This document shows, piece by piece, positions 9,484 to 23,614 of a DNA stretch of 64,000 nt. The notes beneath the pieces were generated by a model. It was not told the DNA's origin and made no database searches. It worked only from the letters and a program-made list of their open reading frames with translations. Location: contig NZ_JALJXF010000001.1 in assembly GCF_024169925.1 (NCBI RefSeq), forward strand, positions 2,238,001 through 2,302,000. The letters are read 5' to 3'. Origin of the DNA: Methylorubrum extorquens (lineage in GTDB: Bacteria > Pseudomonadota > Alphaproteobacteria > Rhizobiales > Beijerinckiaceae). Each line of letters begins with the position of its first letter. The first letter of the stretch is position 1. Made by a program: the position numbers and the translations under genes.

Positions 9484-9986
9484 GGGATAAACCTTTCGAT
9501 ATAAGTCGGTGTTGCTTGCGGCGGAATTTTTTGACAAATTTATTTAGGACAATGTAAGACTATTCTCCGACTTACTAGGGGGCTTGTCGTATTGCGACGC
9601 TTTATTGGCATCGGACGACGTTCTGGAATTTTAGCGCTTCAGCACCGAACCTGTGTTGGCCCATGCCGCGATTCCGGGCAGATGTGTCCAAAAAATTTGC
9701 AAGATATGTGCAGGGCCTGGGCATGAAGCCTGTCGGTCTCGGCTGGCCGATACGCGGCCCTGGCAGCGTCATGCTCCGTGTCGAGGGCCCCGTCTCGAAA
9801 GCTGTCGTGGGCCCTTGGTAAAAGACGCCGCAGCGGCAAAGGCCTGGAGCATCGTTGCGCCGGGCGTGGGTGCGGGGCGTCGAAGACCGTGCCGCCCGCT
9901 GGCGCCGAATGCGAATTCCGGCTGCAGCGCGCTCAAAACGTAAGCACGAAAGATAAAAACTTGCGCAGCCCCAGATTGGTCTTTGC
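9484..9986. other. Intergenic region between divergent importer operons
   Basis: About 500 bp without a convincing gene. The part next to proV (9484-9600) is AT-rich and contains a short GTAAG/CTTAC inverted repeat, probably the proVWX promoter. The rest shows no family-like reading frame; the short frames present lack ribosome sites. Confidence 0.4.
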
Positions 9987-10015
9987 TTGACCAAGAAAAA
10001 CGCTGGGCCTAGAAA
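9987..10015 (+). promoter_or_regulatory. Candidate sigma-70 promoter of the guanidine operon
   Basis: TTGACC (9987-9992), a 17-bp spacer, then TAGAAA (10010-10015). This puts transcription start at about 10022, immediately before the conserved riboswitch core. Position and spacing support it; no experimental data. Confidence 0.6.
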
Positions 10016-10021
10016 GATCGT

Positions 10022-10136
10022 CGAGTTGATCGCTAGGGTTCCAGCATCTCTTTGGATGTGTTCGGTCCGAGAGCGGTTGCCGCGGCGGGAGACATCCGCC
10101 CGGATGCACGGCGGGATAAAAGCCCGGGAGACCTCA
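10022..10136 (+). promoter_or_regulatory. Guanidine-I riboswitch (ykkC class)
   Basis: The three conserved ykkC/guanidine-I blocks occur in order and at normal spacing: CTAGGGTTCC (10033-10042), GGTCCGAGAG (10064-10073) and ACGGCGGGATAAAAGCCCGG (10108-10127) with GAGA following. Between them are two variable hairpins, CATC/GATG (about 10045-10058) and GGCGGG/CCGCCC (about 10084-10102). Established knowledge: this class binds free guanidinium and turns on guanidine export or degradation genes. It starts directly after a promoter and is followed by a terminator hairpin. It commands the ten-gene operon downstream and is the main reason for reading that operon as guanidine rather than urea catabolism. 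Confidence 0.9.
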
Positions 10137-10142
10137 CTGGCC

Positions 10143-10180
10143 AGAGATTGGCAAGGGAAGGTCTTGTACAATCTCTTTCT
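10143..10180 (+). terminator. Riboswitch expression platform: intrinsic terminator hairpin
   Basis: AGAGATTG (10143-10150) pairs perfectly with CAATCTCT (10169-10176). An inner CAAG/CTTG pair extends the stem, and TTTCTAT follows. It lies seven bases after the riboswitch core, as expected for transcription-attenuating guanidine-I switches: ligand would favour read-through. The mechanism is inferred from position and structure. Confidence 0.65.
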
Positions 10181-10549
10181 ATACTGGAAGGGACGTATGC
10201 CCGGCAGAGCCTCCAAGACAAACTTTTCGACGCTTCCGGCCGATGCACGCCTGCGTGCCGTCCGACCTGCGCCGCCGACCGGCTCCGGCCTTCGGCCTGC
10301 CTCGGCCGCGCTCGGCGAAGGCTTCCCCAGCATCATCCCGTAGGTGGCGCGCCGGCGGTCTTCGCGACCCGCGCCCTCTTCCCGGTTCCCTTACTGGTTC
10401 CCGGCCCGGCGCTCCTGCTCCGGGTCCCCGACGATGGGCTCTTCCGCCTGCCGCCGCCTCTCCGCGCGCTCGAAATCCTTGGGCGCCCGACAGCCGAACC
10501 GAACAGCGCACGCTGTGTCCGGCCATTCGACCATCCCAGGAGACGAGAC
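10181..10549 (+). other. Leader between riboswitch and first structural gene
   Basis: About 370 bp of GC-rich sequence with no gene-like frame and no further recognised RNA motif. It ends in AGGAGACGAGAC before the ATG at 10550, which gives a clear ribosome site (AGGAG). Its length is unusual for a leader after an attenuator. Confidence 0.45.
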
Positions 10550-11575
10550 ATGCGCATCCCGAGTCTGATCAATCCCCGTCTGATCACCGATGGTCTCACG
10601 GGCGTCCGCCGAAGCCTGTCCGCCCTCACGCTTGCCGTCGGCCTCCTCGCCGCGCCGATGGCGCAGGCCGCCGAGCCGCTGCGCATCGGCTACAGCGACT
10701 GGCCGGGCTGGGTGGCGTGGCAGGTCGCCATCGAGAAGGGCTGGCTCAAAGAGGCCGGCATCGACGCCCGTTTCGAGTGGTTCGACTACTCCGCCTCGAT
10801 GGACGCGTTCTCGGCGGGCAAGCTCGACGCGGTGACCTGCACCAACGGCGACGCCCTCGTGATGAGCGGCAACGGCGCCCGGAACGTCATGATCCTGCTC
10901 ACCGACTACTCGAACGGCAACGACATCATCGTCGGCAAGCCGGGGGTGAAGTCGCTGGCCGACCTCAAGGGCAAGAAGGTCGGGCTCGAAGTCGGCCTCG
11001 TCGAACATCTCCTCCTGATCGACGGCCTGCAGAAGGCCGGGATCAAGGAGAGCGACGTCACCCTCGTCAACGCCAAGACCAACGAGACGCCGCAGATCCT
11101 CGCCTCCGGCGACGTCGCGGCCATCGGCGCGTGGCAGCCGATCGCCGGCCAGGCCATGCGGGGCGCCGCCGGCGCCCGCCCGCTCTACAGCTCCGCCGAC
11201 CGGCCCGGCCTGATCTACGACGTGGTGACGGTGACGCCCGCGAGCCTCGCTTCGCGGCGGGCCGAATGGATCAAGCTCGTCGGCCTGTGGGACCGGGTCG
11301 TCGGCTACATCTCGGACCCGAAGACCCAAGGCGACGCCGTCGCCATCATGGCGGCCAAGGTCGGCGTGGAGCCGGCCGTTTTCACCCGCTTCCTCAAGGG
11401 CACCAAGCTTCTCACGCTCGCCGAGGGCCGCGCGGTGATGAAGGATGCCGACGGGTTCGGCTCGCTCTACGGGTCGAGCCGGCACGCCGATGCCTTCAAC
11501 GTCAAGTTCGAGGTCTACAAGACCCCGCAGGACGTGAAGGCCGCCATCGATCCCGCCCTCACCGACGGCAAGTGA
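10550..11575 (+). CDS. ABC transporter substrate-binding protein (guanidine/urea cluster, NitT/TauT type)
   Basis: 341-residue periplasmic binding protein with a signal peptide (LTLAVGLLAAPMAQAAEP, cut about residue 39). The opening LRIGYSDWPGWVAWQVAIEK is typical of the nitrate/sulfonate/taurine-type fold. Close relatives are encoded with urea/guanidine carboxylases and are usually named urea carboxylase-associated transporter. Given the riboswitch, guanidine is the probable ligand (inference). First gene of the operon. Start ATG 10550 has AGGAG eight bases upstream; the longer frame back to 10052 overlaps the riboswitch and is not coding. Confidence 0.88.
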   Translation: MRIPSLINPRLITDGLTGVRRSLSALTLAVGLLAAPMAQAAEPLRIGYSDWPGWVAWQVAIEKGWLKEAGIDARFEWFDYSASMDAFSAGKLDAVTCTNGDALVMSGNGARNVMILLTDYSNGNDIIVGKPGVKSLADLKGKKVGLEVGLVEHLLLIDGLQKAGIKESDVTLVNAKTNETPQILASGDVAAIGAWQPIAGQAMRGAAGARPLYSSADRPGLIYDVVTVTPASLASRRAEWIKLVGLWDRVVGYISDPKTQGDAVAIMAAKVGVEPAVFTRFLKGTKLLTLAEGRAVMKDADGFGSLYGSSRHADAFNVKFEVYKTPQDVKAAIDPALTDGK

Positions 11576-11585
11576 GGGTGTGAGG

Positions 11586-12647
11586 ATGCGCGCGCCGCTG
11601 CCTCAGCCCCATCCCGAAAGGGGCGCCGTTCCGGCGGTCGCGGTTGCCCCGCTCCCGCCGGTGGCGGGCGCCGCCCCGGTCGCCGGGCGGGCGCGGCTCT
11701 CCTGGGTCGGCGCGCCGCGCCCGCTGACCCGGCGTCGGCGCGCTGCGCTCACCCTGCTCTCCTTCCTGCTGCCGCTCGGCCTGTGGGCGGCGATCTCCTA
11801 CCTGCCTTTCCTCTGGCACCCGCTGGTCGAGGTCACGAATCCCGGCGACGTCACCTGGATGGAGCCCGGCATGCGGGTGCCGCGGGCGGCGTTTTCCGAG
11901 GAGGTCGCGGCGGCCCAAGGGGCCGGCACGGCCATGCCCGAGGGCCGGCCCGCCAACCCGGTCTACCTGCCGGCGCCGCATCAGGTGGCCGTCGCCTTCT
12001 GGACCGCGCTGACCGCACCGCCGCCCCAGCGCGACGCGATCTGGCTGCCCGCGAGCCTGTGGCACTCGATCCAGATCATTTTTTGGGGTTTTACCCTCTC
12101 CTCCCTGGTCGGCGTGCCGCTGGGCATCCTGTGCGGAGCGCAGCCGACGATCGCCCGGCTGACCGAGCCCGTGATCGAGTTCGTGCGCTACCTGCCCGCC
12201 CCCGCCTTCGGCGCGCTGATGGTCGCGATCCTCGGGATCTACGACGGGCCGAAGATCGCCATCATCGTCATCGGCACCTTCTTCCAGCAGGTGCTCGTCA
12301 TCGCCAACACCACGCGCCGGGTCGATCCGCTGCTGATCGAGGCTGCGCTCACCATGGGTTCGCGCAACCTTCGCCTGATCCGCCGGGTGATCGTGCCGGC
12401 GGTGCTGCCGCAGATCTACCGCGATCAGCGCATCCTCCTCGGCTGGGCCTGGACCTACCTCATCGTCGCCGAGTTGATCGGCACCTCGTCCGGCATCACC
12501 TTCTTCATCACGCAGCAGGCCCGCTACCAGCACTTCGACAACGTCTACGCGGCGATCCTCGTGATCGGCCTCATCGGCATCGCCACCGACATCGCCCTGG
12601 CGCTGATCGGCCGCCGCCTGTTCCCCTATGCGAGGGCCGAGGCATGA
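11586..12647 (+). CDS. ABC transporter permease (guanidine/urea cluster)
   Basis: 353-residue inner-membrane permease of the NitT/TauT type. A Pro/Ala-rich cytoplasmic N-terminus (1-58) is followed by a first membrane segment ([20 protein letters not shown]) and a long periplasmic segment of about 70 residues. The core has five further helices, with the coupling motif region [20 protein letters not shown]. The large insert explains its length against ~260 for ordinary members. ATG 11586 has AGGG eight bases before it; GTG 11580 is an alternative. The stop overlaps the next start as ATGA, which indicates coupled translation. Confidence 0.88.
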
Positions 12648-13579
12648 GCCGCGCGCCCATCCCGCTGACCGCGGAGCCCTGCGACTACCGCACCCAGTGC
12701 GAGCCCGTCCGCGCCCGCTTCGACCGGCTGAAGGCCCGTGACGTCGCCCTGCGGGTCGAGGGCCTCGGCAAGGTGTTTCGCAACGCGGACGGCGCCGAGA
12801 CCGTGGCGCTCCGCGGCATCGACCTCGTCACCCACCGCCGCGAGTTCCTCTGCGTGGTCGGGCCGTCGGGCTGCGGCAAGTCCACCTTCGTGCGCATTCT
12901 CGCCGGTCTCGAGACCAAGAGTTCAGGCAGTGTGAGCGTCGAGGGCCGTCCGGTCGCCGGTCCCGGCGCCGACCGGGGCATGGTGTTCCAGGGCTACACC
13001 CTGTTCCCCTGGCTCACGGTCAAGCGCAACGTCGCCTTCGGGCTCGAAGAGAACGGTGAATCGCGCCACGTCGCCGAGCGCGAGGCGGCGCAATGGCTGG
13101 CGCTGATCGGGCTGGAGCGCTTCGCCGACGCCTACCCGCACCAGCTCTCCGGCGGCATGAAGCAGCGCGTGGCCATTGCCCGTGCGCTCGCCATGCGCCC
13201 GCGCATCCTGCTGATGGACGAGCCGTTCTCGGCGCTCGACACCCAGTCGCGCGCCCGGATGCAGGCCTACCTCATCGAGATCTGGCGCAAGATCGACATC
13301 ACCATCGTCTTCATCACCCACGACCTCGACGAGGCGGTGCATCTCGCCGACCGCATCCTCGTCCTGAAGGCCCATCCCGGCGAGGTCGAGGAACTGATCG
13401 AGGTGCCGGTGCCGAGGCCGCGCCATCCGAGCCAGAGCCTGACGCCGGAATTCCGCGCCACCCGCGCCCGGCTCGACGCGCTGATCCATCCCAGTGAGGC
13501 GGAGGTCGACGGCCCGGCCGATCTGGCTGGCCTCGACATGGTCACCCGGATGGCGAGCGTGGGGGACGAGGTCGAATGA
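12644..13579 (+). CDS. ABC transporter ATP-binding protein (guanidine/urea cluster)
   Basis: 311-residue ATPase driving the importer encoded by the two genes before it. Walker [10 protein letters not shown] (73-81), Q-loop [11 protein letters not shown], signature [15 protein letters not shown], Walker [13 protein letters not shown] and switch His in FITHDLDEA are all present. The N-terminal ~35 residues ([19 protein letters not shown]) are an extension beyond the usual nitrate-type ATPase. It overlaps both neighbours by the sequence ATGA. Confidence 0.92.
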
Positions 13580-14376
13580 GCGCCCTCCCCAATCTCCCCT
13601 TGCTCTGGTCCGACCGCACCTGGGAGGAGATCCCCGGTGACCTCGCGGGCGCCGCGGGGGCCGCGCTCCTGCCCATCGGTGCCACCGAGCAGCACGGGCC
13701 GCATCTCGGCTGCGGCATGGATTTCGTGCTGGCGGATGCCGTCTGCCGCGAGGTTTCGGCGCGCACCCGCGTGCCCATGCTGCCGGCCCTGCCCTATGGC
13801 TGCTCGCTCGGCCATTCCCGGCGCTGGCCCGGCACCATCGCCCTCGACCCTGTCGTGATGACCGAACTCGTCCGGCAGATCGGGGCCCAGGCCTACCATT
13901 CGGGCGTGCGCCGCCTGTTTCTCGTCAACGCCCACGTCACCAACGCCGCGCCGCTACGTTGCACTCTGGAACTGCTGCGGGCGGCCCACGACGACCTGAT
14001 GGTGGCGCTGGTCAACACCGCGACCGTCAGCGAGCGGGTGCGCGCGGCCCACTTCCTCGACGCCGAGGACTGGCACGCCAACCGCGCCGAGACTGCGCTG
14101 ATGCAGGCCGTGGCCCCGGCCCTGGTACGCGAGAACCGCATTGCGGAAGCCGACGACGCGGACCGTACCCAAAACCTCGTCTTTGCCCATCCGGTCAACC
14201 GCACCAGCCGAAACGGCGTCACCGGCTTCCCCTCGCAGGCGAGTGCGGCGGAGGGCGCCGAACTGTTCGCCTGGATGGTCGAGGACCTGACCGCCCTCAT
14301 CCGGCGCGGGCTCGCCGAGACCCCGCCCCTCCCCCATTCCTACGACGGCCCGGCCGTCGTCACCGAAGGAGCCTGA
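13576..14376 (+). CDS. Creatininase-family protein
   Basis: 266 residues with metal-binding motifs of the creatininase/formamide hydrolase family: Glu and His in [18 protein letters not shown] (33-50), [11 protein letters not shown], and [12 protein letters not shown] for the third metal site. Members hydrolyse small amides and cyclic amides with Zn or Mn. The substrate here is unknown. Its place between the importer and the ligase, under a guanidine riboswitch, suggests it acts on a guanidine-related compound or an amide intermediate (inference). Start and stop both overlap or abut neighbours, so it is an integral operon member rather than a passenger. Confidence 0.85.
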
Positions 14377-14381
14377 CACCC

Positions 14382-15755
14382 ATGGGCCACGCGAACGAGG
14401 TCGATCCTCAGATCCGCGCCGTGCAGGAGGATCTGCGGGGCAAGGGCGTGAAATACGTCATCGGCGCCTATGTCGACATCCACGGTGCGCAGAAGGCCAA
14501 GGTGGTGCCGATCGACCACCTGCCGCAGATGGCGGCGGGCTCTGAGCGCTATACCGGCTACGCCCTCGACGGCCTCGGCCAGGCGCCAAACGAGGACGAG
14601 CTCGCCTCGGTCCCGGATTTCTCGCAGGTCATCCAACTCCCCTGGGAGAGCAAGCTCGCCTGGGCGCCCGCCGACCTCACCTTCCAGGGCAAGCCCTACC
14701 CGCTCTCGACCCGCGTCGCCCTCAAGACCGTGCTGGCGCAGGCCGAGGCGATGGGCTTCGGCTTCAACCTCGGCATCGAGTGCGAGATCTTCCTGCTGCG
14801 CCAGGCCGAAGACGGCTCGCTGCACACGCCGGTGGCCGACGATAAGCTGGTGAAGCCCTGCTACGACGTGCGCGGCTTCATCGACAACTTCTCGTGGCTC
14901 GACAAGGTCGCGACCACGATCAACGATCTCGGCTGGGACCTGTACTCGTTCGACCATGAGGATGCGAACGGGCAGTTCGAGTTCGACTTCCAGTACGCCG
15001 ACGCGCTGACCATGTGTGACCGGCTGACCTTCTTTCGCATGATGACCAAGCATTACGCGAAGGAGGAAGGGCTCATCGCCACGATGATGCCCAAGCCCTT
15101 CGCCGACCGCACCGGCAACGGCGCGCATTTCAACATGTCGCTCTCCGACGCCAAGACCGGCCGCAATCTCTTCGCCTGCGCGCCCGGTGAGGATCCGCGG
15201 GGCCTCGGCCTCACCGAGACCGGCTACCACTTCATCGGCGGCGTGCTGCGCCACGGCCGGGCGCTCTGCGCGGCCTTCGCGCCGACGGTCAACAGCTACA
15301 AGCGCCTCGTGCGCCAGGGCGCGATGGCAGGCTTCTCCTGGGCGCCGGTGTTCAACTCCTACGGCTCGAACAACCGCACCAACTCGGTGCGCGTGCCGTC
15401 CGGCGGCGGGCGCTGCGAGAGCCGCAACGCCGACGGCGCGGTCAACCCCTACCTCGCCGCCGCCCTGGTGCTCGCGGCCGGGCTGGAGGGCGTGCGCGAG
15501 CGGATCGACCCCGGCCAACCCAACGAGGACAACCTCTACGCGCTGAGCGATGGCGAGCGCCGGGCGCGCGGCATCGCCTTTCTGCCCCAGACCCTGCAGG
15601 AGGCGGTCGATGCCTTCGCCGCCGACCCCCTGGTCGAGGCCACACTCGGCGCAGGCCTGCGCGAAGAGTTCATCCGCACCAAGCGCGAGGAGTGGAACGC
15701 CTACCATCTCACGGTGAGCCCGTGGGAGATCGAGCGCTACAGCCACCTGTTCTAG
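14382..15755 (+). CDS. glnT: Glutamine synthetase-like ligase, GlnT type (type III glutamate-ammonia ligase)
   Basis: 457-residue glutamine synthetase homologue. The N-terminal beta-grasp part contains [14 protein letters not shown]. The catalytic part shows the metal/Glu residues in ECEIFLLR and [14 protein letters not shown], the nucleotide/His loop [17 protein letters not shown], and the C-terminal [19 protein letters not shown]. Enzymes of this subgroup are described as glutamine synthetases or gamma-glutamyl ligases of small amines. Within this operon it could assimilate the ammonia released from guanidine or glutamylate an intermediate (inference). ATG 14382 lies five bases after the preceding stop. 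Its TAG stop lies within repeat copy 2. Confidence 0.87.
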
Positions 15756-15858
15756 AGCATCGTCCTGGATATCGGATCCAGGACGATGCTCTAATTTTTT
15801 GCCTTTGCATCATCTTTCTTCCGAAAGCCGGCAACCACCTTTCGGGATGATGCTCTAG
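15752..15858. repeat. Dispersed CTAG-bounded repeat, copy 2
   Basis: 107-bp relative of the element at 4614-4718. The first half is a near-perfect palindrome, AGAGCATCGTCCTGGAT / ATCCAGGACGATGCTCT. Then come TTGCATCATCTTTC and the CCGAAAGCCGG / CACCTTTCGGG pair, ending GATGCTCTAG. It sits exactly between the ligase stop codon (TAG 15753-15755) and the ribosome site of the cupin (AGGGAG, 15856-15861), inside the operon. It could act as an RNA-processing or partial termination point. Confidence 0.88.
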
Positions 15859-15868
15859 GGAGCTTGCG

Positions 15869-16240
15869 ATGAAGACCGTTATCAGCTTCGCGAAGTCTTC
15901 CGCCGAGCCCTCGACCTATAGGCCGGCGCCCGCGCGCATCCTGGCCGGTGATCCCGTTCAGACCGCGACGCTTCACTTCACCAGCGCGGACGGGCGCTTC
16001 ACCGCCGGCACCTGGGCGGCGGAGCGGGGCACGTGGCGGGTCGTCTTCACCGAGAGCGAGTTCTGCCACCTGCTCGAAGGGGTGATCGTCGTGACCGACG
16101 AGGCCGGGACGCAGACCACCTTCCGGGCCGGCGACGCCTTCGTCTCGCCGGCCGGCTTCACCGGCACCTGGGAGATCGTCGAGCCGGCGCGCAAGCTCTT
16201 CGCCTTCTACGAGGTGCCATCCGCGCCTGACCACCCATGA
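15869..16240 (+). CDS. Cupin-domain protein
   Basis: 123-residue single-domain cupin. The barrel motifs are recognisable but only partly conserved: TESEFCHLLEGVIVVTDEAG (first motif, with one His) and RAGDAFVSPAGFTGTWEIVE (second). This type (DUF861/EutQ-like, also seen in ureidoglycine aminohydrolases) may be a small metalloenzyme or binding protein. Its role in guanidine degradation is unknown. AGGGAG lies eight bases before the ATG, partly formed by the right edge of the repeat. It recurs with urea/guanidine carboxylase clusters to my knowledge, but I could not check this. Confidence 0.8.
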   Translation: MKTVISFAKSSAEPSTYRPAPARILAGDPVQTATLHFTSADGRFTAGTWAAERGTWRVVFTESEFCHLLEGVIVVTDEAGTQTTFRAGDAFVSPAGFTGTWEIVEPARKLFAFYEVPSAPDHP

Positions 16241-16249
16241 CCCTCCCGC

Positions 16250-16361
16250 CCTCATCCTGAGGTGCGCAGCGAAGCGAAGCCTCGAAAGAGGGCTCCAGCC
16301 AGCCGCGCGATCCTTGGGAAGCCCTCCTTCGAGGCCGCTGACGCGGCACCTCAGGATGAGG
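16250..16361. repeat. Inverted-repeat intergenic element
   Basis: Outer arms CCTCATCCTGAGGTGC (16250-16265) and GCACCTCAGGATGAGG (16346-16361) are a perfect 16-bp match. An inner pair (CCTCGAAAGAGGG / CCCTCCTTCGAGG) has one mismatch. A stable cruciform or RNA hairpin lies between the cupin and the first DUF1989 gene. This CCTCATCCTGAGG-type repeat is common between genes of Rhizobiales (general knowledge). Confidence 0.85.
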
Positions 16362-16473
16362 GGAGAGGGTGGGACGCAAGCATCGAAACCCAAAGTCATC
16401 TGGCCTGCCGGGACGGCCCGGCCGCGACAGGGCTCTCCGGCCGGGACGACCCGGCCCCATCGGAGACACGACC

Positions 16474-17286
16474 ATGTCGGACGAAGCGAGCGTGATTGCG
16501 GAAAACCGCCGCCGCTACGAGGAGCTGAAGCGGGCAGGCCAGGGCCACGCTCCGCGCGCCCTGCCCGGCCCGAGCCCACGCGGCGGCGTGCCGCTCGACG
16601 CTGGCGCGATCCTCCACCGCGAGACCATCCCCGGCGGCTGGTACTGGACCACCGCCCTGAAGGCCGGGGAGGCGCTCCGGCTCGGCCTCGACCATGGCCC
16701 GTCGAGCGTCGCCCTGGTGGCGTGGTCGGCCGCCGAAACCAGCGAGCGGCTGAACTACGCCGACACCGTGAAGGTGCAGTGGACGGCCGCCCTCACCAAG
16801 GGGCGGGTGCTGTTCTCCGATATGGGCCGCGTGATGTTCTCTCTGATCGAGGATTCCTGCGGGGCGCACGACGCGCTCGTCGGCGGCTCCAATGCGGCCT
16901 CGAACGCCGCGCGTTACGCCGGTGGTCCCCACCGCAACACCCGCGACAACCTCGTGCTCGCGGCCCTCAAGAGCGGGCTGGAGCGGCGCGACATTCCTCC
17001 TTGCGTCTCGTTCTTCGCCCCCGTCGTGGTCGGGCCTGAGGGCCGCTTCGCCTGGAACGCCGCCGGCCGCACGGCGGGCGACTTCGTCGATCTGCGCGCC
17101 GAGATGGACCTGATCGTCACCCTCTCGAACTGCCCCCATCCCCTCGATCCGGCGCCCGATTACGCGCCGAACCCGGTCGCCGTCACCCGCTTCCGCGCCC
17201 CGGCGCCGGCGGCGGACGACCTCTGCCGCACCGCCACGATCGAGGCCGTGCGCGGCTTCGAGAACAACGCCGCCGCCGGCTTCTGA
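16474..17286 (+). CDS. DUF1989 protein UAAP1, probable carboxyguanidine deiminase subunit
   Basis: 270-residue member of the urea-amidolyase-associated family (DUF1989). Conserved features are MFSLIEDSCGAHDALVGG with its Cys/His pair and LSNCPHPLDP near the C-terminus, likely metal ligands. Established knowledge: paired DUF1989 proteins, renamed CgdA/CgdB, form the deiminase that converts carboxyguanidine to allophanate and ammonia. Start ATG 16474 follows a GGAGACACGACC ribosome site; the frame is open upstream into the repeat. It lies 12 bp before its partner. Confidence 0.88.
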   Translation: MSDEASVIAENRRRYEELKRAGQGHAPRALPGPSPRGGVPLDAGAILHRETIPGGWYWTTALKAGEALRLGLDHGPSSVALVAWSAAETSERLNYADTVKVQWTAALTKGRVLFSDMGRVMFSLIEDSCGAHDALVGGSNAASNAARYAGGPHRNTRDNLVLAALKSGLERRDIPPCVSFFAPVVVGPEGRFAWNAAGRTAGDFVDLRAEMDLIVTLSNCPHPLDPAPDYAPNPVAVTRFRAPAPAADDLCRTATIEAVRGFENNAAAGF

Positions 17287-17298
17287 GGGGGACGACCG

Positions 17299-17949
17299 AT
17301 GACCGACACCGTGACCACGCTCTTCGACCAAGCCGTTCTGGATCAAGCCGTTCTGGATCAGGTCGTGCCCGCCCAGGCGCCGTTCTCCACCCTCGTGCGG
17401 GCCGGCCAGACCCTCCGCATCGAGGACAGCCAGGGCTGCCAGGCCGTCGACACCCTGTTCTACCGCGCCGACGACCTCGGCGAGCGCTACTCGTCCCAGG
17501 ATACGGTGCGGGCGCAGGGCGCGGCGTACGTCACCACCGGCACGCGGGTGATGTCGAACGAGGGCCGGGTGATGCTCACCGTCACCGCCGATTCCTGCGG
17601 GCGGCACGACACCTCGGCCGGGGCCTGCTCCTGCGAGAGCAACACCGTCCGGTTTGGCCACGCCACCCAATATCTCCACGCCTGCCGCGAGAATTTTGCG
17701 CTCGAAGTCGCGAAGTACGGCCTGTCGAAGCGCGACATCGTGCCGAACATCAACTTCTTCATGAATGTACCGATCGAGCAGGACGGCGGGCTCGCCATCG
17801 TCGACGGCGTCTCGTCGCCCGGCGACTATGTCGAGCTCAGGGCCGAGATGGACGTGATCTGCGTGATCTCGAACTGCCCGCAGATCAACAACCCCTGCAA
17901 CGGCTTCAACCCCACGCCGATCCGCGTGACCGTCCGCGGCGAGGGCTGA
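17299..17949 (+). CDS. DUF1989 protein UAAP2, probable carboxyguanidine deiminase subunit
   Basis: 216-residue partner of the preceding gene, sharing the core: VTADSCGRHDTSAGACSCES supplies Cys and His likely to bind a metal, and CVISNCPQINNPCNGFNPTP matches the C-terminal motif. Together the two should form the carboxyguanidine deiminase (CgdAB). Residues 10-24 contain a short duplicated DQAVL segment encoded by a 15-bp tandem repeat, probably a recent expansion that leaves the fold untouched. Stop and next start are 2 bp apart. Confidence 0.88.
   Translation: MTDTVTTLFDQAVLDQAVLDQVVPAQAPFSTLVRAGQTLRIEDSQGCQAVDTLFYRADDLGERYSSQDTVRAQGAAYVTTGTRVMSNEGRVMLTVTADSCGRHDTSAGACSCESNTVRFGHATQYLHACRENFALEVAKYGLSKRDIVPNINFFMNVPIEQDGGLAIVDGVSSPGDYVELRAEMDVICVISNCPQINNPCNGFNPTPIRVTVRGEG
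17326..17370 (+). repeat. 15-bp in-frame tandem repeat
   Basis: Units GACCAAGCCGTTCTG (17326-17340) and GATCAAGCCGTTCTG (17341-17355) plus a decayed third unit encode DQAVL-DQAVL-DQVVP at the N-terminus of the UAAP2 protein. Keeps frame; likely slippage product. Confidence 0.8.
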
Positions 17950-17951
17950 CA

Positions 17952-20900
17952 ATGTTCGCCAAGGTTCTGGTCGCCAATCGCGGCGAGATCGCCGCCCGCG
18001 TCGTGCGCACGTTGCGGCGCTTAGGCATCGCCTCGGTCGCCGTCTATTCCGACGCCGACCGCTTCACGCCCGGCGTGCTCGCCGCCGACGAGGCCGTGCG
18101 CCTCGGCCCCGCCCCGGCCGCGCAGAGCTACCTCGACGTCGAGGCGGTGATCGCCGCCTGCAAGGAAACAGGCGCCGAGGCCGTCCATCCCGGCTACGGC
18201 TTCCTGTCGGAGAATGTCGGCTTCGCCGAGCGGCTGGCGGCGGAGGGCATCCGCTTCATCGGCCCGCGCCCGGAGCACCTGCGCGCCTTCGGCCTCAAGC
18301 ACACCGCCCGCGATCTCGCCAAGGCCAGCGGCGTCCCGCTCCTGCCCGGCACCGACCTGTTGCCGGATGTCGAGACGGCGCTGAGTGCGGCGGACGTTAT
18401 CGGCTATCCGGTGATGCTCAAGAGCACGGCGGGCGGCGGCGGCATCGGCATGCAGCTCTGCCACTCCGCGCAAGAGTTGGCCGAGCGCTTCGCCGCGGTC
18501 GAGCGCACGGCGCGGGCCAGCTTCGGCGATGCCCGCGTCTATCTCGAACGCTTCGTGGCGCAGGCCCGCCATGTCGAGGTGCAGATTTTCGGCGACGGGC
18601 GCGGCCGCGTCGTCGCCCTGGGCGAGCGCGACTGCTCGCTCCAGCGCCGGAACCAGAAGGTGATCGAGGAGACCCCGGCCCCCGGCCTCTCCGACGCCGT
18701 GCGCGCCCGGCTCCACGCCGCGGCGGTGGCGTTGGGGGAGAGCGTCGCCTACGCCTCGGCCGGCACCGTCGAGTTCATCTACGATCCGACGCGCGAGGAT
18801 TTCTCGTTCCTTGAAGTGAACACACGGCTCCAAGTCGAGCATCCGGTGACGGAAGCCGTGTTCGGCATCGACCTCGTGGAATGGATGGTGCGCCAGGCCG
18901 CGGGCGAGGATCCGATCACGGCGGCCGGGCCGCTCGTGCCGCGGGGCGCGGCGATCGAGGCGCGGCTCTACGCCGAGATCCCGCACGCGAATTTCGCGCC
19001 GAGCGCCGGCCTGCTGACCGAGGTGCGCTTCCCCGAGAACGCCCGCATCGACGGCTGGATCGCCACCGGCACCGAGGTCACCCCGTTCTACGACCCGATG
19101 CTCGCCAAGATCATCGTCACCGGCGCCGACCGTCCGGCGGCTTTGGCGGCGCTGCGGCAGGCGCTGGCCGACACCGCAATCTCCGGCATCGAGACGAACC
19201 TCGATTACCTGCGCACCATCGCCGCCTCCGACCTGCTGGCCAGCGGGCGGGTCGCGACCACGGCCCTGCGCGATCTCGCCTATGCCCCCAGGAGCATCGA
19301 GGTGCTGCTGCCGGGCGCCCAGTCGAGCCTTCAGGAACTGCCCGGTCGGCTCGGCCTGTGGGAAGTCGGCGTGCCGCCGAGCGGGCCGATGGACGCCCGC
19401 TCCTTCGCCCACGCCAACACCCTCGTCGGCAACGGGCAGGACGTCTGCGCCCTCGAACTCACGGTCTTGGGCCCGACGCTGCGCTTCCACACGGACGCTC
19501 TCGTGGCGCTCGTGGGCGCCGCGATGCGGCTCACCCTCGACGGGGAGACGCGTCCGCACGGGCAGGCGTTTTCGGTCAGCGCAGGGCAGACGCTCGCCAT
19601 CGGCGCGATCGAGGGGCCGGGCCAGCGCGCCTATCTGGCCCTGCGCGGCGGCCTCGCGGCGCCCGTGGTGCTCGGTTCACGCGCGACCTTCGCGCTCGGC
19701 GCCTTCGGCGGCCACGCCACCGGCGTGCTCAAGGCCGGCGACGTGCTCCATCTCGGCGATGCGCCGGAAGTCGCTGCCGCCCCGCCCGAGCCCGCGCCGC
19801 TGACCCGTGATTGGGAGATCGGCGTCGTCTACGGCCCGCACGGCGCGCCGGACTTCTTCCAGGAGGCCGACATCGCCGACCTGTTCTCGGAATCCTACGA
19901 GGTCCACTTCAACTCGGCCCGCACGGGCGTGCGACTGATCGGCCCGACGCCGCGCTGGGCGCGGACCGACGGCGGCGAGGCGGGCTTGCACCCCTCGAAC
20001 CTGCACGACAACGCCTACGCCGTCGGGGCCATCGACTTCACCGGCGACATGCCGATCCTGCTCGGCCCCGACGGCCCGAGCCTCGGCGGCTTCGTCTGCC
20101 CCGCGGTCATCGCCCGCGACGAGCTGTGGAAGATGGGCCAGCTCCGGCCCGGCGACACCGTGCGCTTCCAGCCCATGGCCCGGCCGGAGGACGCGCTCGC
20201 CGCCCCGGCCCTGCTCGGCGGCACGGACGCGGGGCCCGGCTCGCCCGTCCTCGCCCGCGACGAGACCGGCCCGGTCCCCGTCGCCTATCGCCGCCAGGGC
20301 GACGACAACCTGCTGGTCGAGTACGGCCCGATGGCCCTCGATATCGGGTTGCGGCTGCGGGTCCATCTCCTGGCCGAGGCGGTGCGCGCCGCCCGGCTCC
20401 CCGGCCTCACCGACCTGACGCCCGGCATCCGCTCGCTGCAGATCCACTACGACGGCACGGCGCTGCCGCGCCACCGCCTGCTCGGCAACTTGCGCGAGAT
20501 CGAGGCCGGATTGCCGGCCGCGGAGGCGGTGAGCGTCCCGAGCCGGGTCGTCCACCTGCCGCTCTCGTGGAACGACCCGCAGGCGGAACTGGCCATGCGC
20601 AAGTACCAGGAACTGGTGCGCCCCAACGCGCCCTGGTGCCCCTCGAACATCGAGTTCATCCGCCGCATCAACGGCCTGCCCGACGAGGCGGCGGTGCGGA
20701 ACATCATCTTCGATGCGAGCTACCTCGTGATGGGGCTCGGCGATGTCTATCTCGGCGCGCCGGTCGCGACCCCGGTCGATCCGCGCCACCGCCTCGTGAC
20801 CACCAAGTACAACCCGGCCCGCACCTGGACGCCGGAGAACGCGGTCGGCATCGGCGGCGCCTACATGTGCATCTACGGCATGGAGGGGCCGGGCGGGTAC

Positions 20901-21482
20901 CAGCTGTTCGGGCGCACGATCCAGGTCTGGAACACGTGGCGGACCACCCGCGAATTCGTGCCCGGCCATCCGTGGCTGTTGCGGCCCTTCGACCGCATTC
21001 GCTTCTTCCCCGTCAGCCACGCCGAACTCACCGAGGCCCGCGCCGCCTTCCCGCACGGCGCCTATCCGATCCGGATCGAGCCCGGCACGTTCTCCTACGC
21101 CGAGCACCGGGCCATGCTCGCGGGCAACGCCGCCGAGATCGAGCACGCGGGCGCGCGCCAGAGAGCGGCCTTCGCGGCCGAGCGCGAGCGCTGGAAGGCG
21201 GAAGGGCTCGACAGCTTCGTCGCCGACGAGGCGGTGTCCACTGAGGCCGCCGAGATCCCGCCGGGCTGCGAGGGTGTGCCGACCACCGTGCCGGGCAATG
21301 TCTGGAAGGTTCTCGTCGGCGCGGGCGAGACCGTGGCCGCGGGGCAGACGGTGGCGATCCTCGAATCGATGAAGATGGAGGTGGCGGTCACCGCCCCCGT
21401 CGGCGGCCGGGTCCGCGAGATCCGGGCCCAGCCCGGCCGCACCCTGCGCGGCGGCGACCTCGTCGCCATCCTCGAGATCTGA
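17952..21482 (+). CDS. Biotin-dependent guanidine/urea carboxylase
   Basis: 1176-residue multidomain enzyme. Biotin carboxylase occupies about 1-450, with ATP-grasp loop KSTAGGGGIGMQ and VNTRLQVEHPVTEAVFGIDL. A carboxyltransferase built from KipA- and KipI-like domains occupies about 460-1060. The biotinyl domain has ESMKMEV, with the biotin-accepting Lys at about 1141. The reaction is ATP-dependent carboxylation of urea or guanidine. Family members with a guanidine-I riboswitch and DUF1989 partners act on guanidine (established). I infer guanidine here, but sequence family alone does not decide. Length matches bacterial stand-alone forms; the hydrolase is a separate gene downstream. Confidence 0.9.
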   Translation: MFAKVLVANRGEIAARVVRTLRRLGIASVAVYSDADRFTPGVLAADEAVRLGPAPAAQSYLDVEAVIAACKETGAEAVHPGYGFLSENVGFAERLAAEGIRFIGPRPEHLRAFGLKHTARDLAKASGVPLLPGTDLLPDVETALSAADVIGYPVMLKSTAGGGGIGMQLCHSAQELAERFAAVERTARASFGDARVYLERFVAQARHVEVQIFGDGRGRVVALGERDCSLQRRNQKVIEETPAPGLSDAVRARLHAAAVALGESVAYASAGTVEFIYDPTREDFSFLEVNTRLQVEHPVTEAVFGIDLVEWMVRQAAGEDPITAAGPLVPRGAAIEARLYAEIPHANFAPSAGLLTEVRFPENARIDGWIATGTEVTPFYDPMLAKIIVTGADRPAALAALRQALADTAISGIETNLDYLRTIAASDLLASGRVATTALRDLAYAPRSIEVLLPGAQSSLQELPGRLGLWEVGVPPSGPMDARSFAHANTLVGNGQDVCALELTVLGPTLRFHTDALVALVGAAMRLTLDGETRPHGQAFSVSAGQTLAIGAIEGPGQRAYLALRGGLAAPVVLGSRATFALGAFGGHATGVLKAGDVLHLGDAPEVAAAPPEPAPLTRDWEIGVVYGPHGAPDFFQEADIADLFSESYEVHFNSARTGVRLIGPTPRWARTDGGEAGLHPSNLHDNAYAVGAIDFTGDMPILLGPDGPSLGGFVCPAVIARDELWKMGQLRPGDTVRFQPMARPEDALAAPALLGGTDAGPGSPVLARDETGPVPVAYRRQGDDNLLVEYGPMALDIGLRLRVHLLAEAVRAARLPGLTDLTPGIRSLQIHYDGTALPRHRLLGNLREIEAGLPAAEAVSVPSRVVHLPLSWNDPQAELAMRKYQELVRPNAPWCPSNIEFIRRINGLPDEAAVRNIIFDASYLVMGLGDVYLGAPVATPVDPRHRLVTTKYNPARTWTPENAVGIGGAYMCIYGMEGPGGYQLFGRTIQVWNTWRTTREFVPGHPWLLRPFDRIRFFPVSHAELTEARAAFPHGAYPIRIEPGTFSYAEHRAMLAGNAAEIEHAGARQRAAFAAERERWKAEGLDSFVADEAVSTEAAEIPPGCEGVPTTVPGNVWKVLVGAGETVAAGQTVAILESMKMEVAVTAPVGGRVREIRAQPGRTLRGGDLVAILEI

Positions 21483-21793: not shown

Positions 21794-23614
21794 ATGCCGG
21801 TTCCCGCCTTCCTGAGCCTCAGCGCGCTCCACGCCGCCTATGCCGATGGGCTCTCGCCCGAGGCGGTTTTGGCCGAGATCGACCGCCGGATCGCTGCTGC
21901 CGACGATCCCGGCATCTTCCTCGCGCGGGTGCCGGCGGCGCAGATGCAGGCCGCCGCCCGCGCGCTCGGCCCCTTCGACCCCGTGAGCAAACCGCTCTGG
22001 GGCGTGCCCTTCGCGGTGAAGGACAACGTCGACGTGGCGGGCCTGCCCACCACCGCCGCCTGCCCGGACTTCGTCTATACGCCGCAGGCGACCGCTCCGG
22101 CGGTCGAGCGTCTGCTCGCGGCCGGCGCGATCCTCGTCGGCAAGACCAATCTCGACCAGTTCGCCACGGGGCTCGTCGGCGTGCGCACGCCCTATCCGGC
22201 GCCGAAGAACGCCATCGATCCGGCGATCGTGCCGGGCGGCTCCTCGTCCGGCTCGGCGGTGGCGGTGGCGCGCGGCCTCGTTACGTTTGCGCTGGGCACC
22301 GACACGGCGGGTTCGGGCCGGGTGCCGGCCGGCCTCAACAACATCGTCGGGCTCAAGCCCTCCCTCGGCAGCGTCTCGGGCCGCGGCGTGGTCCCGGCCT
22401 GCCGCACGCTGGACACCCTCTCCGTCTTCGCCGGCACCGTGACGGAGGCTGACGCGGTCTACCGGATCATGGCCGGATACGATCCGCAGGATCCGTATTC
22501 GCGCGCCCTGCCCGTTCCGCCCCGCCCCGGCCGCCTGCCACCGGGCTTGCGCGTCGGCGTGCCGGACGCGGCCGGTCGCATCTTTGCCGGCGACACGCTC
22601 TCGGCGGCGGCCTTCGACGGGGCGCTCGCCGACCTGCAATCCGTGATCGGCGGCGCGGCGAGGATGGTCGATCTGGCGCCCTTCTTCGCGGTCGCGGGGC
22701 TTCTCTATGCCGGCCCCTGGGTGGCCGAGCGCTATCAGGCGATCCGCGGGTTCATCGAGGAGCGCCCGGAGGCTCTGCACCCGACCACGCGGGCGATCAT
22801 CGGCGCAGCCACCGGCCACTCGGCGGCGGATGCCTTCGCCGGCCTCTACCGCCTCGCCGAACTCCGCCGGGCGACCGAGGCCGTCTGGGGCGGGATCGAC
22901 GTGCTCGTGGTGCCGACCTATCCGCGCCCGCGGCGCGTCGCCGACCTCGCCGCCGACCCGGTTGGCCCCAACAGCGAACTCGGCACCTACACCAACTTCG
23001 TCAATCTGCTCGACCTGTGCGCCCTCGCGGTGCCGGGGCGCTTCCGTGCCGACGGCTTCCCGTCCGGCGTGACGCTGATCGCGCCGCGCGGGGCCGACGG
23101 CCTCATCGCCGCACTCGGCGCCCGCCTCCACGCGGCGGCCGGCGGCACACTCGGGGCGAGCGGCGTGCCGATCCCGGCGGAGGCCGCCCCGCCCGGGGAT
23201 CGCGCGCAAGCGGACGAGATCGAGGTCGCGGTGGTCGGCGCGCACCTGTCCGGCCTGCCGCTCAACGGCGAACTGACGGGGCGCGGCGCCCGCTTCCTGC
23301 GCGCCATCCCCACGACACCGGATTACCGTCTGCACGCGCTGCCCGGCGGACCGCCGGCCCGGCCCGGCCTGATCCGCGTCGCGCCCGGTTCGGGCCATGC
23401 GATCGAGACCGAGGTCTGGGCGCTGGCGCCGGACGCTTTCGGACGTTTCGTGGCGGGGATTTCCTCGCCGCTGGCGATCGGCACGCTGTCGCTGGCCGAC
23501 GGCACGACATCGAAGGGATTCCTGGCGGAAGCGGCCGGGCTCACGGGCGCGCGCGACATCAGCGATCACGGCGGCTGGCGCGCCTACCTCGCCTCCGGGG
23601 CCATCGCGCCGTAG
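21794..23614 (+). CDS. atzF: Allophanate hydrolase
   Basis: 606-residue amidase-signature enzyme that splits allophanate into ammonia and CO2, the last step of the pathway. The catalytic Ser-cisSer-Lys triad is visible: Lys76 in VPFAVKDNVDVAG, Ser150 in VPGGSSSGSAVAV and the nucleophile Ser174 in GTDTAGSGRVPAG, with the normal 24-residue spacing. The C-terminal ~120 residues form the extra domain of full-length allophanate hydrolases (LPGGPPARPGLIRVAPGSG region). Start ATG 21794 follows GTGAGAGATCG; the frame continues upstream without family similarity. A GC-rich hairpin follows, so this is probably the operon's last gene. Confidence 0.93.
   Translation: MPVPAFLSLSALHAAYADGLSPEAVLAEIDRRIAAADDPGIFLARVPAAQMQAAARALGPFDPVSKPLWGVPFAVKDNVDVAGLPTTAACPDFVYTPQATAPAVERLLAAGAILVGKTNLDQFATGLVGVRTPYPAPKNAIDPAIVPGGSSSGSAVAVARGLVTFALGTDTAGSGRVPAGLNNIVGLKPSLGSVSGRGVVPACRTLDTLSVFAGTVTEADAVYRIMAGYDPQDPYSRALPVPPRPGRLPPGLRVGVPDAAGRIFAGDTLSAAAFDGALADLQSVIGGAARMVDLAPFFAVAGLLYAGPWVAERYQAIRGFIEERPEALHPTTRAIIGAATGHSAADAFAGLYRLAELRRATEAVWGGIDVLVVPTYPRPRRVADLAADPVGPNSELGTYTNFVNLLDLCALAVPGRFRADGFPSGVTLIAPRGADGLIAALGARLHAAAGGTLGASGVPIPAEAAPPGDRAQADEIEVAVVGAHLSGLPLNGELTGRGARFLRAIPTTPDYRLHALPGGPPARPGLIRVAPGSGHAIETEVWALAPDAFGRFVAGISSPLAIGTLSLADGTTSKGFLAEAAGLTGARDISDHGGWRAYLASGAIAP

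Follow-up and report, generated by a model that had tools for sequence, protein, structure and literature searches.

A predicted guanidine carboxylase operon of Methylorubrum extorquens carries two guanidine riboswitch classes and a gene module found mostly beside a NikR-like gene elsewhere

The pairing of two guanidine riboswitch classes in one operon has already been published for Vreelandella (PMC12508155) and for three enterobacteria (PMC12186494), as has the reinterpretation of riboswitch-controlled "urea carboxylases" (PMC7266159; PMC12186494). We compared these systems with an operon in a 64,000-nucleotide stretch of Methylorubrum extorquens DNA (hereafter the window), in which all features located below lie on the + strand. 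Like the window operon, that of Vreelandella boliviensis (PMC12508155) has Guanidine-I first and Guanidine-II inside, together with genes for an ABC transporter, cgdA and cgdB, gca, atzF and accessory genes. Its Guanidine-II lies between cgdB and gca, whereas that of the window lies ahead of cgdA, and its extra genes are mgdH and mgdL, whereas those of the window encode a creatininase-like protein, a glutamine-synthetase-like protein and a cupin. The operons of Raoultella, Erwinia and Klebsiella (PMC12186494) share with the window a Guanidine-I before the importer and a Guanidine-II before a later gene group, but their deaminase genes belong to the Guanidine-I half and those of the window to the Guanidine-II half.

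Closer to the window in gene order is the usual alphaproteobacterial operon (L063, L091 and others), which consists of Guanidine-I, an ABC transporter, Guanidine-II, cgdA, cgdB, gca and often atzF. The transporter of L063 differs from that of the window (approximately 30% identity for the substrate-binding protein, 28% for the permease and 43% for the ATPase), matches to the creatininase-like, synthetase and cupin genes were not found in the usual loci, and a long gene directly follows the switch there. Another set of loci (L140, L141, L145, L146) carries the same five genes as the front of the window operon in the same order, but where the window has Guanidine-I and a leader ORF they show a NikR-like gene in divergent orientation, joined in five strains by a GTATTACGA..TCGTA(A/C)TA repeat. 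We regard the guanidine-over-urea reading and the switch pairing as known, and propose as new the leader ORF as first target, the NikR-linked module, its three attachments to guanidine operons, the tandem at locus L097 and a Shine-Dalgarno-masking expression platform. Among the papers listed, our literature searches found neither Methylobacterium together with guanidine riboswitch names nor a link between the module and guanidine, and the prior art may be wider than these searches.

The preliminary description of this DNA had placed a Guanidine-I (ykkC) riboswitch with three ordered conserved blocks at 10022..10180, and had suggested the Rfam guanidine-I covariance model as a check. Run on the window, this model (RF00442) returned a full-length match (model positions 1-107 of 107) at 10022..10132 with 77.9 bits against a cut-off of 63 (E 3.8e-12 in 64 kb), and all three blocks lie inside it in order. 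The riboswitch assignment stood for this aptamer, while 10133-10180 falls outside it and makes up the expression platform. Covariance search of the 5.26-Mb genome gave this single Guanidine-I match at E<=0.001. Custom models were built from 19 hits for Guanidine-I and 35 hits for Guanidine-II, with the window and a small number of searched loci among these hits, and the former scored the window aptamer at 103.3 bits with the window itself among its 19 seeds. Across the 19-row alignment, block 1 was exact in 18 rows and block 2 in all 19, while block 3 was exact in 7, one base off in 8 and two off in 4; the window has blocks 1 and 2 in their usual form and the block 3 form common to 7 of the 19 rows. 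Compared at the level of the motif rather than by residue-by-residue mapping of A46 of the crystal structure, GGTCCGAGAG is unaltered in the window aptamer. A46 is the adenosine described as a marker separating the guanidine class from the ppGpp and PRPP subtypes (PMC6031431).

At four positions where 68 other matches are almost invariant, the window aptamer has a different base: A at 10029 (G in 65 of the 68), A at 10043 (G in 67), C at 10063 (U in 62, gap in 5) and U at 10077 (C in 63). A few mutations suffice for ykkC aptamers to change ligand (PMC6031431), and these lineage substitutions could mean that the specificity of the Methylorubrum aptamer has drifted, for instance to a substituted guanidine. 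We consider such drift very improbable, given the usual form of blocks 1 and 2, the presence of the block 3 form in 7 of 19 rows, and the placement (by inference) of all four sites in the P1-P2 arm, outside the P3 S-turn that forms the ykkC ligand pocket (PMC6031431). The window riboswitch is a real, ordinary Guanidine-I, which would bind guanidinium and turn expression on. Elsewhere in our searches, eight weak Guanidine-I-like matches (L160-L167; 37-58 bits, below the cut-off) were observed in eight Methylobacterium genomes, two of them as second matches, and are possibly other ykkC subtypes. Two Devosia loci also had a second Guanidine-I match (L055:13720-13826 and L059:3963-4069).

Ahead of the aptamer, the promoter TTGACC-17-TAGAAA named in the preliminary description can be read in the sequence at 9987..10015 (TTGACC at 9987-9992, TAGAAA at 10010-10015), and TTGA(C/T) was observed at that place or within a few bases of it in all 12 genus relatives compared. 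A sigma-70 consensus scan of 9900-10700 nevertheless accepted no sites, and we refer to the element as promoter-like. Behind the aptamer, the hairpin described earlier (hairpin A, 10143..10176) pairs AGAGATTG (10143-10150) with CAATCTCT (10169-10176) and has TTCTATAC directly on its 3' side. Its 3' arm is also able to pair with the next Shine-Dalgarno sequence (10186-10193), forming hairpin B (10172..10193), in which TCTCTTTC pairs with the Shine-Dalgarno GGAAGGGA; hairpins A and B are mutually exclusive. A third element, helix T1 (10128..10165), pairs the 3' tail of the aptamer, GAGACCT (10128-10134), with AGGTCTT (10159-10165). Helix T1 and hairpin B occur together in the minimum-energy fold of the window, and in this model helix T1 is a candidate OFF-state helix, while hairpin A would free the Shine-Dalgarno.

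These pairings were surveyed in 66 distinct leaders (72 matches minus one dropped and five duplicates). Hairpin A of at least 6 bp was present in 65 of the 66 and hairpin B of at least 6 bp in 56, and in 51 hairpin B both overlapped an arm of hairpin A and lay beside a start codon. Hairpin B was better than shuffles at p<=0.05 in 47 of 66 leaders (p 0.045 in the window), and comparative support for helix T1 was modest, with 19 of 45 leaders at a shuffle p<=0.1. When the first 9 nt of the aptamer tail region were forced to be unpaired in the 69 usable leaders of 71, an open Shine-Dalgarno became likelier in 40 and less likely in 2, with little change in 27; in the window its predicted chance rose from 0.00 to 0.38, and to 0.18 with 7 nt forced. 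The predicted folds are barely more stable than shuffles, with z-scores of -1.38 for the Guanidine-I leader and -1.69 for the Guanidine-II region, values too weak for thermodynamics alone to serve as proof of structure.

A hairpin followed by a T-rich tract, as the preliminary description had reported here, could also work as a terminator of transcription: without bound guanidine, the structure at 10143-10176 with its U-rich tail would stop RNA polymerase. An intrinsic terminator is presumed at the V. boliviensis Guanidine-I (PMC12508155), and a run of at least four T was observed at the hairpin end, though in only 36 of 66 leaders. Our scan of 9900-10700 for intrinsic terminators (a GC hairpin, then at least five T in eight, taking loops of 3-8 only) found none, the tail of the window is TTCTATAC, and hairpin B was retained in 20 of the 30 leaders that lack a T run. 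Hairpin and tract are both present without a terminator-like site in this short-loop scan, and we set termination aside as the main reading and retain it as a somewhat unlikely rival. The comparison favours a masked Shine-Dalgarno, and the hairpin and tract are more likely a masking platform than a terminator, with Guanidine-I read as a putative translational ON switch. Base composition gave no evidence either way for a Rho site, since the coding sequence behind the C-rich leader (GC skew -0.16 to -0.24) is rich in C as well.

The start codon behind this platform does not belong to the transporter. A leader ORF of 48 codons (10197..10343) starts 64 nt past the aptamer, and the transporter start at 10550 lies behind it. 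Each of the 13 genus leaders has an ATG at +63 to +65 after the aptamer (taken as the first ATG from +60) that opens an ORF of 21-61 codons, and the bodies of these ORFs are little conserved among the 13. In 12 leaders the match to the substrate-binding protein of this transporter (SBP') starts at residue 1, and there it begins 234-441 nt past the aptamer. Of 67 leaders from outside Methylorubrum, 64 have a long ORF (at least 250 codons) with its start 50-130 nt past the aptamer; the exceptions are L097 (39 codons), L108 (235) and L129 (50). This arrangement suggests that the leader ORF may be the scar of a replaced first gene of which the start is still used. ORFs of 21-61 codons could also have a chance origin.

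The preliminary description had made no mention of a second switch. We found a Guanidine-II (mini-ykkC) match at 16405..16454 (RF01068, 38.9 bits, cut-off 32, E 3e-4 in 64 kb), the only one in the genome at E<=0.001, consisting of two GC hairpins with loops ACGG and ACGA and ending 19 nt ahead of the cgdA start. Its linker TCTCCG (16434-16439) is the complement of CGGAGA (16461-16466) in the Shine-Dalgarno region of cgdA, spanning 16434..16466, but this is not the pairing in the predicted fold. The complement is missing in L051 and others, and we rejected a conserved anti-Shine-Dalgarno in the linker.

The same succession of switches was common beyond the window. Among 81 sources (the window and the 80 best gca loci) searched with the custom models, 64 had Guanidine-I followed by Guanidine-II with both on the operon strand, 6 had only Guanidine-I, 5 only Guanidine-II and 6 neither; four of these last six (L057, L111, L115, L121) have little sequence ahead of gca. 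The median spacing from Guanidine-I to Guanidine-II was 2.8 kb, and for 68 of the 69 loci the distance between the end of Guanidine-II and the cgdA match was -60 to 150 nt. The family sample of 199 genomes contained Guanidine-I in 20 and Guanidine-II in 40 (E<=0.001), with both on one contig and strand within 10 kb in 12 genomes by reading of the two lists. In the genus sample, Guanidine-I was over the cut-off in 13 of 111 genomes, all of which also had Guanidine-II. At a Bradyrhizobiaceae locus (L097:8125-8489), the two switches stand 207 nt apart ahead of cgdA without a transporter between them, both over their Rfam cut-offs (99.1 and 45.6 bits); the arrangement was apparently made by loss of the intervening transporter genes. 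A 2022 review of tandem riboswitches reported that tandems with any guanidine class had not been seen (PMC9481103), and L097 would be an apparent tandem of two guanidine classes, a kind which that review had not found.

The operon extends to 23614 and begins with genes for an ABC substrate-binding protein (SBP', 10550..11575; PF09084, with TIGR03427 below its cut-off at 141.7 of 333.9), a permease (11580..12647; PF00528) and an ATPase (12644..13579; PF00005). These are followed by a creatininase-family hydrolase (13576..14376; PF02633, 1e-63), a type III glutamine-synthetase-like protein (GSIII, 14382..15755) and an EutQ-like cupin (15869..16240; PF05899). Behind Guanidine-II come the two carboxyguanidine deaminase subunits, cgdA (UAAP1, 16474..17286; TIGR03425, 288.1 bits, cut-off 205.95) and cgdB (UAAP2, 17299..17949; TIGR03424, 331.6 bits, cut-off 284.7), the guanidine carboxylase gca (17952..21482; TIGR02712, 1774.5 bits), for which the annotation would be urea carboxylase, and the allophanate hydrolase atzF (21794..23614; TIGR02713, 782.1 bits, cut-off 511.05). 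Palindromic sequence, recognised by eye, flanks the cupin gene at 15756-15795 and 16240-16370, between GSIII and Guanidine-II, and could divide the two halves of the transcript.

Aspartates at the positions of Kluyveromyces lactis 1330 and 1584 are reported to mark guanidine carboxylases as opposed to urea carboxylases (PMC11410670). Alignment places D695 and D931 of the window gca at these two specificity positions, so guanidine rather than urea is its expected substrate. Both aspartates were observed in 89 of 89 gca sequences examined, a few of which represent the same strain twice; the nearest named records to the window gca were Methylobacterium sp. Leaf123 (97%) and Methylorubrum rhodesianum (93%). 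A carboxylase that truly uses urea, with a merely decorative riboswitch match, is barely conceivable: gca does pass the urea carboxylase model TIGR02712, but the name of that model covers both enzymes and gca has both of the aspartates that mark guanidine carboxylases in PMC11410670. The earlier view that guanidine, not urea, is the likely signal and substrate gains from the RF00442 match, from the Guanidine-II before cgdA, from the cgdA, cgdB, gca and atzF genes and from D695 and D931, and guanidine is likely both the signal and the substrate of the operon.

The accessory enzymes carry less settled names. The creatininase-family hydrolase does not reach the creatininase equivalog cut-off (TIGR04448, 112.3 bits against 235), and it differs at the residues aligned to Glu122, Trp154 and Trp174 (numbers as counted on that alignment), which we take to have functional roles in creatininase. 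We rejected a true creatininase on these two observations, and the protein is probably not one. GSIII passes the type III glutamine synthetase equivalog (TIGR03105, 648.7 bits against 469.6), and its best PDB match is the glutamate-methylamine ligase 9qur (E 3.6e-116). The support for guanidine as substrate concerns the gca set; the creatininase-like and GSIII genes of the front half are at most candidate guanidino-compound genes.

At the other end of the operon, atzF was 89-94% identical to that of the window in L051, L122 and L197 and 51-53% identical in L052, L053, L145 and L194, while gca in these last four loci was 80-84% identical to the window gca. L196 had a 51% atzF match on the opposite strand. 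By these identities, we read the atzF gene as having been replaced.

We refer to the SBP', permease, ATPase, creatininase-like and GSIII genes together as the module. In L140 and L141 its neighbour is a divergent NikR-like gene, and the fetched stretch contains neither guanidine genes nor guanidine switches; L142 and L144 have the NikR-like, creatininase-like and GSIII genes without the ABC transporter of the module. No NikR-like match was found in L143, which has a more distant ABC transporter and GSIII, or in L147, which has a 45% creatininase-like match. Four Methylobacterium loci (L052, L053, L145 and L194), and L146 as well, have the module and its NikR-like gene ahead of Guanidine-II, cgdA, cgdB and gca, and Guanidine-I was not found at any of these five loci; L097 has the module and a NikR-like gene convergent behind gca. 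A NikR-like gene was present in 10 of the 12 distinct module loci fetched outside Methylorubrum (L052 and L192 are one strain, as are L053 and L195). Searches with the L053 gene gave no NikR-like match in the window genome or in the Methylorubrum loci L191, L196 and L197; the orthologues that this gene found elsewhere by tblastn came from searches separate from that of the genome. From this distribution, it appears that in Methylorubrum the NikR-like gene is gone and Guanidine-I is in its place. Twelve genus genomes have Guanidine-II without Guanidine-I (E<=0.001); four of the five examined have the NikR-type operon, and in the fifth (L193) the module, NikR-like and guanidine genes were not found near its Guanidine-II.

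The GTATTACGA..TCGTA(A/C)TA inverted repeat was observed at L053:2290, L141:6707, L142:9679, L145:5048 and L194:15246, and is a candidate operator of the NikR-like protein. The strict repeat was present in 6 of 14 module loci, equal to five strains since L053 and L195 are one, and the strict pattern was not found in L052/L192, L097, L140, L143, L144, L146, L147 or the window; we rejected a NikR operator in every module locus on these counts. One of the 13 two-switch genus genomes (G982, L191:7390-9628) has kept both riboswitches and lost most of the module, a large deletion having fused the beginning of the permease gene with the last part of GSIII. This represents either a decaying operon or an assembly fault.

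The cgdA tree had 37 rows after six of the original 43 were omitted as distant or long-branched. Its 13 rows with the module fell in three supported places: Methylobacteriaceae (100/99), L146 (100/100) and L097 with Bradyrhizobium (100/99). L146 groups with four relatives that have a Guanidine-I to Guanidine-II spacing of approximately 2.8 kb. A single clade of module-bearing cgdA was rejected with a p-AU of 3.2e-6, an optimistic value in that the group was named after the first tree, and with it one origin of the linkage between module and guanidine genes. On this tree, the module appears to have joined guanidine operons at least three times.

Creatininase-like matches were observed in 8 of 397 genomes of the order sample (E<=1e-60), seven of them with at least 67% identity, in 2 of 385 genomes of the class-wide sample and in 3 of 199 of the family sample (E<=1e-40). 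All seven order-sample genomes with a match of at least 67% also had a cgdB match, compared with 61 of 383 overall (Fisher 1.9e-6, uncorrected for kinship), while the eighth (G920, 45% creatininase-like) had a distant cgdB match only. Five genomes carry a module that is not adjacent to guanidine genes. Four of these (L208-L211) hold cgdB beside gca and Guanidine-I, and the remaining genome (L212, G891) has a partial cgdB match only, with gca not found nearby. L208, from a genome with the ABC transporter of the module, has no transporter between Guanidine-I and cgdA, and a Guanidine-II match was not found there; L209, L210 and L211, the modules of which lack that transporter, retain the standard one. 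Queries with the standard ABC transporter, run over the fetched loci, matched 14 of 16 loci only at the module's own ABC genes (26-45% identity), and the other two gave an SBP match alone (L191) and an unrelated ATPase far from cgdA (L208). This complementary pattern of the two transporters suggests that the ABC transporter of the module imports guanidine.

The front module might instead be a nitrogen or metal module, unrelated to guanidine, that a rearrangement left trapped behind Guanidine-I. It does lie beside a NikR-like gene without adjacent guanidine genes in L140, L141, L142 and L144, and G891 has the module with only a partial cgdB match and without gca beside it. We judge this unlikely in view of the three separate attachments to guanidine operons, the cgdB match in every one of the seven genomes whose creatininase-like match is at least 67% against 61 of 383 (kinship uncorrected), and the lack of a standard ABC transporter in the fetched loci that have the one of the module.

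Taken together, we consider it fairly probable that guanidinium turns the operon on at two points, with cover of the leader through the leader ORF and with Guanidine-I standing where the module elsewhere mostly has a NikR-like gene. Guanidinium would bind the front Guanidine-I aptamer, which would then hold its own 3' tail, and helix T1 would be blocked. Hairpin A would then form at the expense of hairpin B and expose the Shine-Dalgarno at 10186-10193. This exposed site would, in Methylorubrum, start the short leader ORF and not the transporter gene, so the effect would probably come through ribosome cover of the leader and less transcript loss of a Rho-type or decay-linked kind, a step that we infer solely from the position of the ORF. 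At the second point, guanidinium would fold Guanidine-II and open translation of cgdA and with it cgdB, gca and atzF. SBP', permease and ATPase may import guanidine, and guanidine carboxylase, carboxyguanidine deaminase and allophanate hydrolase would convert it to CO2 and ammonium. The front block (transporter, creatininase-like protein and GSIII) is the module that lies mostly beside a NikR-like gene elsewhere. A more specific version, which we offer only tentatively, is that the sole direct translational target of Guanidine-I is a leader ORF retained for the sake of its start codon, and that the module captured from a NikR-type regulator is a second, independently recruited guanidine importer with a creatininase-like and methylamine-ligase-like branch, for a guanidino- or N-methyl-compound, feeding gca.

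On this reading, genes annotated for urea would come under guanidine control in Methylorubrum, and the loci would provide a natural series for following the change of one operon's regulator from a protein to a riboswitch. The complementary pattern of the two ABC transporters points to a second guanidine importer family, and the creatininase-like and glutamine-synthetase-like genes, by their repeated linkage to guanidine carboxylase, suggest that guanidino metabolism has a further branch not yet described.
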